DNA of 64,000 nt from a bacterium. GTDB taxonomy: Bacteria; Bacillota_I; Bacilli_A; Izemoplasmatales; Hujiaoplasmataceae. The notes under the pieces were generated by a model that worked only from the letters and a program-made list of their open reading frames with translations, did no database searches and had not been told where the DNA came from. The position numbers were made by a program, and so were the translations under genes. This document shows, in pieces, positions 17,422 to 23,943 of this stretch (positions within the stretch are counted from its first letter, which is position 1; each line of letters starts with the position of its first letter). The stretch covers positions 1-64,000 of the forward strand of contig JAUXXX010000102.1 of NCBI GenBank assembly GCA_030684695.1, written 5' to 3'.

Positions 17422-18066
17422 ATGAACGTATGTACTATTTGTCAATATCCGACAACCTCATTCCAGCATTCAACGAGTGGAGTTTTATTTCATCTATGTC
17501 CACATTGTGAGTACATTCGTAAAGATGAGTTGTTCTTTCCTACCAAAGAAGCGGAACTGAAACGGTACAATCAACACCAAAACTCCAAAGAAGACGTTAC
17601 ATATCAAGCATACTTTGCAAGGTTTATTGAAGAGGCGTTGATTCCATTTACAACAGGAAAAAAAGCGATTGATATAGGTTCGGGACCGCAAGCGGTTTTA
17701 GCATATGTTCTAACAAATCGTTATGGGTTTGAAGTGGATATTCACGATCCCTTTTATTCGAAAGAAGATGACGTACTTCATCAGTTGTACGATGTCGTGG
17801 TATGTACGGAAGTGATAGAACATGTCTTTGATGTTCCATCGATTTTTAAGCAGTTTGTGTCGTTGTTACACCCAAAAGGGGTTTTAGCGATTATGACGAG
17901 TTTTCATCCTCTAGATCAAACATTGTTTCAAAATTGGCACTATCACAGAGATAATACTCATGTTGGATTTTTTAGAGACCGTACGTTTGAAATTCTTTCT
18001 ATTCAATATGGGTTTGATATTTTATATTCGAATCATCGCAATATGATTACTTTACGAAAAAGGTGA
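17422..18066 (+). CDS. SAM-dependent methyltransferase with N-terminal zinc finger
   Basis: A 214-residue class I methyltransferase. The N-terminus has two Cys-x-x-Cys pairs (C4/C7 and about C27/C30) that would bind zinc. The SAM-binding motif I is AIDIGSGPQAVL, motif II VDIHDP, and EVIEHVFDVP is typical of the Methyltransf_23 group. The substrate is unknown. The architecture resembles enzymes acting on small molecules or tailoring steps. It has a good AGGAGG site and is followed four bases later by a hydrolase gene. Confidence 0.8.
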   Translation: MNVCTICQYPTTSFQHSTSGVLFHLCPHCEYIRKDELFFPTKEAELKRYNQHQNSKEDVTYQAYFARFIEEALIPFTTGKKAIDIGSGPQAVLAYVLTNRYGFEVDIHDPFYSKEDDVLHQLYDVVVCTEVIEHVFDVPSIFKQFVSLLHPKGVLAIMTSFHPLDQTLFQNWHYHRDNTHVGFFRDRTFEILSIQYGFDILYSNHRNMITLRKR

Positions 18067-18070
18067 CGAT

Positions 18071-18682
18071 GTGAAAAAACCAATTTTATTGTTTCAAGGA
18101 GATTCCAACACCGATTGGAACCGAGTTAGAGAAGATTATTATGATTTAGGTGGAGGATACGTACATTTAGTACAACACGCATTTCCGCATGTATTGGTCC
18201 TGAACCGTGGTGTAAGTGGGGATCGCACAACAGAACTCTTGGCACGATGGCACAAGGATTGTTTGGAGATTCAACCGGATTATTTATCCATTTTTGTGGG
18301 AATCAATGAAGTGTGGCATAAATACATTTGGAATAAACCGATGACTACTAGACAGTTTGAAGAAAACTATCGACAATTATTGGAACTTGTAAAGAAGGAG
18401 AAACCAACAACAAAGATGTTGCTTCTGTCCCCATTTGTATTTCCTATCGGAGACTATAATGAGCAGTGGATGCCAGACTTAATCGAAGAAACTAGAATTG
18501 TCGAAGAATTATCAAAAGAGTACAACACACTATTTATTCATATGCAACAATTTATGGATTCTCATTTGACCATGCATTCCATGCAAGAGTTGACCTATGA
18601 CGGTGTACATCCAACCCCACTAGGATTTGACTTTATTTCAAAAGAAATTATCCAACAAATCGAAAAACACTGGAATTTATAA
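18071..18682 (+). CDS. SGNH/GDSL-type esterase
   Basis: A 203-residue cytoplasmic SGNH hydrolase. Block I is FQGDSNTDW (nucleophile Ser), block II GVSGDRT (oxyanion Gly), block III GINEVW (in place of GxND, with Glu for Asp) and block V DGVHPT (catalytic Asp/His). The family covers acyl esterases, including lysophospholipases and sugar deacetylases. The start is GTG, with AGGTGA upstream; an ATG two bases earlier is out of frame. It is probably cotranscribed with the methyltransferase. The substrate is unknown. Confidence 0.85.
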   Translation: MKKPILLFQGDSNTDWNRVREDYYDLGGGYVHLVQHAFPHVLVLNRGVSGDRTTELLARWHKDCLEIQPDYLSIFVGINEVWHKYIWNKPMTTRQFEENYRQLLELVKKEKPTTKMLLLSPFVFPIGDYNEQWMPDLIEETRIVEELSKEYNTLFIHMQQFMDSHLTMHSMQELTYDGVHPTPLGFDFISKEIIQQIEKHWNL

Positions 18683-19998: not shown

Positions 19999-20046
19999 GG
20001 GACTCCATTGGGTCCCTTTTTATTTTACCTCCCTTTAGGGAGTTTT
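19999..20046 (+). terminator. Tandem terminators after rpsR
   Basis: GGGAC/GTCCC hairpin with TTTTTATTTT (19999-20026), followed by CTCCC-TTTA-GGGAG with TTTT (20029-20046). Confidence 0.85.
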
Positions 20047-20075
20047 CGCTTGCGATTTGCAAACAGAGTCACTTG

Positions 20076-20084
20076 TGATATAAT
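20076..20084 (+). promoter_or_regulatory. Extended -10 promoter of gdpP-rplI
   Basis: TGATATAAT with a weak -35 (TTTGCA, 20056-20061) at 17 bases, about 35 bases upstream of the ATG at 20119. Confidence 0.6.
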
Positions 20085-20118
20085 ATCTTTGATTACGAAA
20101 AATTCGAGGTGCCTTTTT

Positions 20119-22560
20119 ATGAAAAAGCGCTCCATGGTGATTTTAATCCTTGTTATTGGGCTGACGTTATTGTTCAGTATCTTTGGATTCATCATCATCT
20201 TGCAACAACAAGATGTTTGGTATACAATACTCTATTTATTGGTTATTTTATCCATTGCATTCGGCGTGCTATTTAACACGCTTTTTGGCAAGCAACGAAT
20301 CTTCAAGATCAAACTGTTAGAAGAAAAACTACGAGATGCTAGCGTATTACAAAAAAGATTGAAGAATAGTGAAGAAATCGCCTTGAACTATTTACCGGTA
20401 GGGATGATTCTTTACGATTCAAATGGATTAATCATTTATGCAAATAATGCAGCGAAAGACTACTTTTCGAATCTATTAGTAGATCGTCGGTTGTCGTTAG
20501 TTCATGAAAATTTAGCGAACTTGATTGAAAAGAAAGAATCAAAGTTTATCATCAATGTGTATGGGAAAGAATACGATGTGATACATTATCCCAAGAATCG
20601 TGCATTGTATTTGTTTGAAGTAACCCAACGGGAAGAAATGAAAACCTATATTCGGGATCATGCACCTGTGATTGGCATGATTAATCTTGATAATTTTGAA
20701 GAAGCAACTCAAAACTTTGACTTCCAACTAAAATCATCTGTTCAAGGGAAATTCTTAGGAGCGATTAGCAATTGGGCGCAAAAATATGATCTGTATTTAA
20801 TTAATCTACGTACCGAACGTTGTATATTTTTCTGCCATCGTCATCAACTTGAACAAATTATGAAAGATGATTTGTCTATTCTTGAAAAGATTAATGAGGC
20901 TTCGAACGCAACCGAAGTTCGAGTAACTGCATCTATTGGAATAGCATGCGGGGATGTCACTCAAAACAACTTAGGAGATTTAGCAGAAGAAGCCCTAAAG
21001 TTAGCATTGGGTAGAGGCGGCGATCAAGTCGTTGTTAATATCGAAAATCAACCATTAAAATTCTTCGGTGGAAAAACAAATACTGTTGAAAAGCGAACCA
21101 AAATCACCGCTCGAATCAATTCAAGAATCATTGGGGACTTAATTGCAAAACATCCAAAAACCTACATCATGCCCCACAAGTGGACCGATATTGATGCATT
21201 AGGAGCCGCAGTTGGTTTATTGCATTTAGCGTTGGTTCAAGGAAAAGAAGCTCGGATTATTTTAGACTTTGATGCCATTGATTTAACATGTTCAAAAGTC
21301 ATCAATATGTTAAATCGAGAGTATATCAAACTCTTGGAATATTTTATGGATCCGGATTACGCGTTGGATCAAATCAACGCAGACGATTTACTGATTTTGG
21401 TGGATCATCATGCGGCGAGTCAATCCAACGAACCAAAAGTGGTTGAAAAAACCAAGAACATCGTTATTGTAGACCACCATCGTCGTATGGAAGGTGCACT
21501 CACTGATGTATTACTTAGTTACATTGAACCCTACGCATCCAGTTCTGCAGAACTAGTGATTGAACTTATCGAGTTATACAATTATGAAATTGAGTTAGAT
21601 TCTTTCGAAGCGACTATGATGCTTGCTGGTATGATGATCGATACCAACAATTTTACGTACCGAACAGGAGTAAGAACGTTTGAAGCAGCAGCTTTACTGA
21701 AACGCTATGGTGCAGATCCATTTAAAGCACGGTTGTTACTTCGTGAATCCTTAGATCATATAAAAACGAAATCAAATCTAATTAACCAGGCACAAATCAT
21801 ATCGAATCATTTTGCAATTACCACACTCGCTCCAGAAATTCAAACCGAACGAGTTCAACTAGCCAAAACAGCAGACGAGTTATTAGAGATTGATAATATT
21901 GTAGCGGCATTTGCGATTGGGCATATTAGCCCAGATGTTGTGGCAATCTCAGGTCGAAGTGTTGACAAATTCAATGTTCAAGTCATCATGGAGCAATTCG
22001 GTGGTGGCGGGCACTTGAACAATGCCGCAGCACAAATACCGAATGGAACGATTCCAGAAATCGTTCATAAACTCGAAGAAATCTTGAAAACATCCTACAA
22101 GGAGGAAATCAACATGAAAGTAATTTTAACCAAAGATGTCAAAGGAAAAGGTAAAAAAGGGGAAATCATTGATGTAGCGACGGGGTATGGAAACTTCTTA
22201 CTTACGACAAAACAAGCCATGGAAGCAACCACTGGAAACTTAAAATCCTTAGAAGAAGAACGCGCAAAAATTGAGAAAGAAGCCAAAGCTGAACTTGATA
22301 TGGCTAAGAAATTAAAAGCAGATATTGAAGATCATCCCATCAAGCTATACGTCAAAATTGGTGAATCAGGCAAACTATTTGGAGCGATTAATACCAAGCA
22401 AATTGCAGAAGAGTACAAGAAGACACATAACATTGAGTTAGACAAGCGAAAAATCGTTCTTGATGAAAACATCCATTCTCTTGGGGTATACAAAGTACCT
22501 GTGAAATTACATAAAGATGTGATGGCTTATATCAATTTACAAATTCTCGAAGAAAAATAA
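20119..22560 (+). CDS. gdpP: GdpP c-di-AMP phosphodiesterase fused in frame to ribosomal protein L9
   Basis: An 813-codon frame. Residues 1-665 are GdpP: two N-terminal TM helices, a PAS domain (about residues 80-170), a degenerate GGDEF domain, and a DHH/DHHA1 phosphodiesterase. The last carries [22 protein letters not shown] and the C-terminal [11 protein letters not shown]. It hydrolyses cyclic di-AMP at the membrane, linking to osmotic, potassium and wall stress control. Residues 666-813 are a complete L9. No stop codon separates them, yet AAGGAGGA (22099-22105) lies just before the L9 ATG at 22114. L9 could therefore be made both as a membrane-tethered fusion and as a free protein. ATG 20119 is chosen; an earlier GTG-type start at 20008 would lie upstream of the promoter. 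Confidence 0.93.
22114..22560 (+). CDS. rplI: Ribosomal protein L9 (in frame with gdpP, own start site)
   Basis: A 148-residue L9: an N-terminal RNA-binding domain starting [17 protein letters not shown], a long central helix rich in Glu/Lys, and a C-terminal domain ending ILEEK. The length matches free-standing L9. L9 binds 23S rRNA at the base of the L1 stalk and limits frameshifting and ribosome collisions. A near-ideal ribosome binding site precedes ATG 22114, so independent initiation is likely although the reading frame is continuous with gdpP. Confidence 0.9.
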
Positions 22561-22581: not shown

Positions 22582-23943
22582 ATGGAACAAAAAATCCCGC
22601 AAAATATAGAAGCAGAACAAGCCGTCCTGGGTTCGGTCTTTTTCGATCAAGGATCGATAAAAACCGTTTTAGATAAACTCCATCAACAGGATTTCTATCA
22701 TCCACAACATCAAATCATCTACGAATCAATGAAAGAGTTATTTCAAGAACTGGTGATGATTGACTATACGACGTTAAGCGATCGCTTATCATCCAAAGGG
22801 ATGTTGGAGCGAGCTGGCGGAATGGAGTACATTACTGCACTTATTGAGGCAGTACCTTCGTCTTCAAACTTAATCAATTACATCAACATCGTGAAAGATA
22901 AGTCCATCACACGAAAAATCCAAGACACGTGCCGAAAAATCATTGAAGAATCTTACAATGTTGAGTTTGCACCCGATTTCATCGATGATGTGGAACGTCA
23001 AATCGTCCAAATTACCAAAGAAAAACGCACATCTGATTTCAAAGAGATTGGTGGTATTGCGGAAGAACTGTTGAAAAAAATTGCCAATCAAGCTCAAGTC
23101 AAAGGACATATCACTGGGATTGATTCTGGATATGCGATGTTAAATCATTACACTTTGGGTCTTCAACCATCCGATTTATTAATCATTGCGGCACGACCTT
23201 CTGTTGGGAAAACCGCGTTTGCTTTGAACGTTGCACTCAATGCAGCCAAGTCAGATAAAAAGCCCCATATCGCCTTTTTCTCCTTGGAGATGGGCGTGGA
23301 CCAACTTGTGATGCGGATGCTTGGCTGTCAAGCTCAAGTGGACAACTTTAATCTCCGTAAAGGGGACTTAATGAGTCAGGATTGGGAAAAACTTCATTAT
23401 GCAGTAAGTCTTCTTCAAACGCTAAACATCTACTTCGATGACTCAGGAACCGTCAAAGTCACGGATCTTCGTAGTAAATGTCGTAAACTTCGTCAAGATG
23501 GGAAACTTGATTTAGTCATCATTGACTATCTACAACTATTGAGTGGAAGTGCAACCAACCAACAAAACCGGGTTCAAGAAGTATCTGAAATTTCTCGGGT
23601 TCTCAAAGAAATGGCCCGTGAACTTAAAATACCCGTTGTGGCACTAAGTCAATTGTCTCGAAATGTAGAAACGAGACAAGACAAGACACCAGTCATGGCA
23701 GACTTAAGAGAATCTGGTTCGATTGAACAAGATGCGGATATTATCCTATTCTTGTATCGTAAAGAACCCACAGAAGGAGATAAAACTATCTCCAATCATA
23801 TTATGGTCAATATCGCAAAGAACCGTTCTGGTACCATCGGAGAATTTGAACTCCTCTTTAATAAGAACATGTCGACATTCTCGAATACACGTGTGTCGAA
23901 TGATCGTAATGATGATGAAGAGCAGTATGAGGTGAAGCGTTAG
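22582..23943 (+). CDS. dnaB: Replicative DNA helicase
   Basis: A 453-residue hexameric helicase that unwinds DNA at the replication fork. The N-terminal primase-interacting domain (IEAEQAVLGSVFFD) is followed by a RecA-like ATPase with Walker A ARPSVGKTA, Walker B LDLVIIDYLQLL and the DnaB motif LRESGSIEQDAD. No intein is present. It follows rplI by 21 bases with AGGAGG upstream. A weak hairpin overlapping its end (23935-23962, with a T-run) may partly terminate transcription before prfA. Confidence 0.97.
   Translation: MEQKIPQNIEAEQAVLGSVFFDQGSIKTVLDKLHQQDFYHPQHQIIYESMKELFQELVMIDYTTLSDRLSSKGMLERAGGMEYITALIEAVPSSSNLINYINIVKDKSITRKIQDTCRKIIEESYNVEFAPDFIDDVERQIVQITKEKRTSDFKEIGGIAEELLKKIANQAQVKGHITGIDSGYAMLNHYTLGLQPSDLLIIAARPSVGKTAFALNVALNAAKSDKKPHIAFFSLEMGVDQLVMRMLGCQAQVDNFNLRKGDLMSQDWEKLHYAVSLLQTLNIYFDDSGTVKVTDLRSKCRKLRQDGKLDLVIIDYLQLLSGSATNQQNRVQEVSEISRVLKEMARELKIPVVALSQLSRNVETRQDKTPVMADLRESGSIEQDADIILFLYRKEPTEGDKTISNHIMVNIAKNRSGTIGEFELLFNKNMSTFSNTRVSNDRNDDEEQYEVKR

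Follow-up and report, generated by a model that had tools for sequence, protein, structure and literature searches.

We report that the gene for the predicted c-di-AMP phosphodiesterase GdpP and rplI, which encodes ribosomal protein L9, form one continuous reading frame in the stretch of 64,000 nucleotides analyzed here (the window), as they do across a large set of bacteria akin to the wall-less mollicutes. The best explanation, which we consider likely, is that one gene encodes two products, the shorter nested in the longer, that the fusion had a single origin and was kept by selection, and that the fused L9 domain serves GdpP. Initiation at 20119 would produce a membrane-bound c-di-AMP phosphodiesterase with a C-terminal L9 domain, and initiation at an internal Shine-Dalgarno (SD) sequence and ATG (22100-22116) would produce free L9, the sole source of ribosomal L9 in genomes with a single copy of rplI. 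The relevant features of the window are:

19999-20042, + strand: two terminator-like hairpins between rpsR and gdpP (five terminator-like sites in the region versus 1.6 expected)
20056-20084, + strand: promoter-like site before gdpP (TTTGCA or TTGCAA, TG, TATAAT; 10 of 12 consensus matches), a consensus match only, with the total of such sites found at chance level
20119-22560, + strand: fused gdpP::rplI open reading frame, 813 amino acids and TAA (NF011110, 673.9 bits, E = 3e-202)
20119-22113, + strand: GdpP part, 665 codons (residues 1-665), with N-terminal hydrophobic helices, PAS, degenerate GGDEF, DHH and DHHA1 (Pfam)
22098-22106, + strand: internal SD sequence, (C)AAGGAGG(A), core AGGAGG at 22100-22105, read as Lys-Glu-Glu in the fused frame
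22099-22113, + strand: short junction peptide KEEIN, linking the final helix of DHHA1 to the strand with which L9 begins (AlphaFold model)
22114-22560, + strand: rplI part, a 148-amino-acid L9 (residues 666-813) with its own ATG and both L9 domains (TIGR00158, Pfam)
22582-23943, + strand: dnaB, downstream of rplI (from its translation; the order gdpP-rplI-dnaB also occurs in the related loci L197-L201)

As an earlier sequence-only reading of this DNA had proposed, the 813-codon frame runs uninterrupted from its ATG to a TAA at 22558-22560, with no stop between gdpP and rplI. Pfam domains follow one another along the protein in the order PAS_GdpP, GGDEF_GdpP, DHH, DHHA1, Ribosomal_L9_N and Ribosomal_L9_C. 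The GdpP domain set is complete, including the N-terminal membrane helices, which span residues 2-29 and 33-91 in the AlphaFold model and are hydrophobic by eye. The metal-binding and catalytic DHH motifs are intact (H353, D357, D359, D388, D429, D452-H453-H454 and D508) and, like the glycine-rich motif before H632, are invariant or nearly so in an alignment of 22 fused relatives; H632 itself does not vary there. The L9 part exceeds the cut-offs of TIGR00158 (129 bits) and of Pfam L9_N and L9_C, and retains the bL9 loop residues G13, K14, G24 and G90. No second rplI was found in the window genome (1.93 Mb, 129 contigs, 87% complete). At the junction, the AlphaFold model has a helix at residues 645-659, pLDDT values below 50 at 661-663 and an L9 strand from 666; a docked L9 interface was considered and dropped, since pTM values of 0.38 and 0.42 make the domain placement unusable.

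The window genome also contains a gene for the c-di-AMP synthase DAC. A DAC match (PF02457) was absent from all four genomes searched in family f2 (G034, G036, G038 and G040; L064-L066), three of which carry the fused GdpP-L9. The f2 relative L277 nevertheless keeps the DHH residues; in this family the enzyme may act on another substrate.

Of the 60 nearest relatives, 57 have the fused frame, whole or as a piece cut by a contig end, and these include single-contig genomes; the frame is also present in the complete genome CP076020 ("Mycoplasmatota bacterium strain zrk2"). Among genomes that were taken from hit lists rather than at random, many of them metagenome-assembled, it occurs in nearly all members of the order (families f1, f2 and f3) and extends to five other families of the class (f7, f12, f16, f18 and f22), with complete genomes among the carriers. 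L9 matches were obtained in 13 of 15 genomes of f7 and 53 of 55 of f22, and each of these genomes has the fused form or its fragments. L9 is free in f5, f6, f8, f9, f10, f13, f14, f15, f17, f19, f20, f21 and f24, as far as these were listed or read. Full-length profile matches had hinted at a fusion in f9, where an in-frame stop lies just before L9, and long tblastn matches had hinted at fusions in Clostridia and Enterococcus, where all frames read contain stops or frame changes and all 45 loci examined are unfused.

On a tree of 86 GdpP proteins, the difference between fused and unfused states requires a single change, with no unfused row under the common ancestor of the fused rows. In the unfused relatives read, with one exception, gdpP and rplI are spaced from -23 (an overlap) to +18 nt, and the SD sequence of L9 lies within or next to the end of gdpP. 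Given this overlapping or abutting arrangement, the ancestral step was probably the loss of the gdpP stop codon. This loss would predate the split of the order from the other fused families, after which selection would have kept the fusion. In Enterococcus sp. MJM12 (L256, near 4806), rplI is unfused and in a different frame from gdpP, and the SD stretch, AAGGAGGAAATTAAC, is almost identical to that of the window; this likeness suggests that the SD sequence is older than the fusion.

How might free L9 be made from the fused gene? In the window, AAGGAGGAA (AGGAGG at 22100-22105) sits 8 nt before the ATG of L9 at 22114. Its pairing with the 16S rRNA tail amounts to -11.2 kcal/mol, whereas recoding the peptide synonymously gives a mean of -4.1; at the remaining in-frame Met codons in gdpP genes (n = 1,720) the average is -2.1 kcal/mol, and 6% of these codons reach -6 or below. 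The internal ribosome-binding site that the sequence-only reading had noticed is thus far beyond chance. All 137 distinct single-copy fused junctions have a start codon (ATG, GTG or TTG) and a strong SD sequence at L9. Across 104 single-copy fused loci, L9 begins with ATG in 97, GTG in six and TTG in one, and a valine in first position is always encoded by GTG, though GTG makes up 5-16% of the valine codons in those genes. Each of the 104 loci pairs at -6 kcal/mol or lower, and their mean of -10.3 is the same as in unfused relatives (-10.2). Synonymous recodings with each gene's own codons average -6.8 kcal/mol (Wilcoxon p = 9e-16, a nominal value that overstates independence, as do the counts, because genomes within families are related). 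The excess over recodings is seen in eight of eight family means, is largest in f1 (-11.0 versus -4.1), f7 and f3, and is small in f12, f16 and f22, whose peptide (GG or GE) nearly forces an SD sequence. Both the junction peptides (KEE, QEE, GGD, KGE and EKEE) and the codon phase of the SD motif vary among families. The mRNA also has less structure at this point: folding in the 50 nt around the L9 start is below the gene's own mean in 102 of the 104 loci, and for the window 196 of 200 shuffled sequences fold at least as well. Judged by these comparisons, the SD sequence and start codon at L9 are conserved beyond the demands of the encoded peptide. Inheritance from the unfused state could partly account for them; passive retention over a tree of 24 substitutions per site is unlikely.

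Two natural duplications bear on what each product does. In five genomes, the fusion is followed 15-70 nt downstream by a free rplI and then by dnaB, all on one contig (G310, G317 and G323, from one f7 genus, and G134 and G556, from one f22 genus; L197-L201). Among 142 distinct fused junctions, the SD sequence is missing from these five alone (+0.5, -2.8, -2.8, -1.3 and -1.4 kcal/mol). The three f7 duplicates have also lost the L9 start codon of the fused copy (ACT, AAG and AAG), and the free copies start with ATG. The N-domain loop residue G24, invariant in the 137 other L9s, is replaced by H, E, E, N and N in the five fused duplicates, which have likewise lost the C-domain residue G90 (97% conserved); the free copies keep both residues, which we take to be rRNA contact positions. 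Nevertheless, the fused duplicates are still full-length and L9-like, AlphaFold models retain the L9 pattern of helices and strands, and dN/dS values for this part are 0.32 (G317-G323) and 0.12 (G134-G556), with 0.15 for GdpP.

In the L9 tree, the two copies of each genus pair with one another among the fused families (supports of 82 and 88, which are moderate); topology tests weakly rejected a grouping of all free copies (p = 0.036) and did not reject a grouping of all fused copies (p = 0.083). Because single-copy relatives exist in both families and the copies pair by genus, this evidence, which comprises two lineages and five genomes, is most simply read as two independent tandem duplications. 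It is possible that such tandem rplI copies, with the fused one diverging, represent subfunctionalization. In sequence, the internal start is lost after duplication, exactly where a second, free rplI exists, and is conserved elsewhere. Together, these patterns lend good support to the two products that the sequence-only reading had envisaged and suggest that both proteins are made. As a separate observation, G139 (genus g84, 97% complete) and G350 have neither an L9 nor a GdpP match, and their sister genomes have the fusion and a second rplI; the whole gdpP-rplI unit may have been lost.

If free L9 comes from the internal start, why is the fusion kept? The fused tail seems to be kept for GdpP, because the duplicated copies stay full-length and under selection, the linker is nearly fixed in length and stop codons have not been gained. 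As deduced from this retention, the domain would most likely act on GdpP itself, through stability, oligomeric form or regulation. A more specific proposal is that a whole lineage has captured L9 as a permanent regulatory or structural GdpP module, whose ribosomal-protein fold adjusts c-di-AMP hydrolysis to the state of translation, or to how much free L9 or how many ribosomes are available, with the internal start balancing L9 against the enzyme. This proposal is speculative and we give it little weight.

The sequence-only reading had raised a role at the ribosome, in which the fusion could tether ribosomes or link the second messenger to translation. Ribosomes would then be held at the membrane, or L9 on the ribosome would control the phosphodiesterase. 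Two points speak for such a role: the binding site of L9 on 23S rRNA lies between helices H15 and H76, with the C-domain of L9 pointing outward (PMC3335287), and in single-copy genomes the conserved residues of L9 are intact in the fused domain. However, the intact surface in these genomes is accounted for by the sequence shared with free L9. Where a duplicate supplies free L9, the fused copies of both lineages have dropped the loop glycine and the C-domain motif yet are retained under purifying selection; that conserved RNA-binding features go once the ribosomal duty is lifted argues against tethering as the conserved purpose. The short linker, which leads straight into the rRNA-binding N-domain, may also hinder docking. 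We therefore regard coupling to the ribosome as unlikely, though it may operate in single-copy genomes, and the fused domain probably has a role for the enzyme instead.

It could also be argued that the loss of the stop was harmless, that the tail does nothing for GdpP and that conservation is due to free L9 alone. Such an accident would be easy, given that gdpP and rplI overlap or abut with the L9 SD sequence in or beside the end of gdpP, and the L9 sequence would be conserved for free L9 in any case. Neutrality does not, however, fit the absence of reversions: a rough estimate at the GdpP amino-acid rate predicts that stops would have appeared about 25 times in ten codons of the linker over the tree, and none was seen in the 107 fused genomes sampled. 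Between the GGGGH motif and L9 residue 1, every fused genome measured has 33-36 residues; in unfused GdpP, 26-43 residues follow the motif up to the end of the protein. Fused L9 copies freed of ribosomal need, moreover, remain full-length under purifying selection. We find this explanation distinctly improbable.

Translation of the fusion alone, with L9 released by proteolysis at the junction, could make use of the low-confidence break at residues 661-663, but would leave unexplained the restriction to ATG, GTG and TTG, the synonymous conservation of the SD sequence, the unstructured mRNA and the loss of these features only beside a free rplI, and is very unlikely. Removal of a stop by sequencing or assembly error has a negligible probability, as nothing was found in its favor, the same fused frame occurs in more than 100 independent genomes, several of them complete, and a missed stop is excluded by the nearest relatives (57 of 60) and CP076020. 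The continuous frame noticed in the sequence-only reading is confirmed.

The order of genes in the window, all on the + strand and named from their translations, is rpsF-ssb-rpsR, gdpP, rplI, dnaB and prfA. The start of gdpP is the ATG at 20119, preceded by GAGGTG (20106-20111); TTG 20008, the listed start, is unlikely, as it falls inside the terminator/promoter stretch. Given the hairpins that follow rpsR, transcription of gdpP-rplI probably begins independently. Just upstream of rpsF (17422-18682) are a methyltransferase-like ORF and a GDSL/SGNH-type hydrolase ORF, both ordinary by eye.

The fusion itself is already known as a named NCBI annotation family, in keeping with the remark in the sequence-only reading that comparable names exist for some other bacteria. 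NF011110/PRK14538 ("putative bifunctional signaling protein/50S ribosomal protein L9") has the same domain order over its full length, and the window protein matches it in one stretch (profile positions 50-836 of 838), with GdpP and L9 in one chain. Because its score of 673.9 bits is under the equivalog cut-off of 707, which is passed by none of the 61 nearest genomes and by 38 of 296 in the class, the window protein is a divergent relative rather than a curated member. The best members in the class belong to the small-genome family f12, and the record is silent on an internal start or two products. According to Grosjean et al. 2014 (PMC4014445), fusions among Mollicutes translation genes are flagged in a supplement. 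Our literature search found no functional study of a GdpP-L9 fusion or its products, only mentions of the operon; within the reach of that search, what is new is the gene with two products, the fact that it arose once and the duplications in two lineages. The case is a clear, old and stable one in which bacteria carry a ribosomal protein gene in frame within the gene for a signaling enzyme, with evolutionary support for two products and with two duplications in nature that set the two functions apart. The cause of the lasting gdpP-rplI linkage across Firmicutes becomes testable, and the case illustrates how annotation can hide the free L9 start across an entire bacterial group, whose genomes then appear to be without a normal rplI.

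L9 is dispensable in E. coli, where its binding site lies below the L1 stalk (PMC3335287). In Bacillus, Streptococcus and other Firmicutes, gdpP and rplI are co-transcribed (PMC4568413, PMC3711813), with the same genes in the same order and rplI directly after gdpP; these operons differ from the fusion in the stop that separates the two proteins. Enterococcus L256 is an example, in which AAGGAGGAAATTAACATG is close to the SD stretch of the window but rplI is in a different frame. Two further systems offer partial parallels. Forms of IF2 arise from an in-frame internal start in infB, which likewise yields a shorter second protein from an SD sequence and start in the same frame; unlike those of infB, the short product here would be a ribosomal protein in its own right, encoded as a free-standing protein in relatives, and the long one is part of a different pathway. 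Eukaryotic ubiquitin-ribosomal protein fusions, which are split by proteolysis, also carry a ribosomal protein as the C-terminal part of an unrelated protein, whereas the evidence for GdpP-L9 points to internal initiation.
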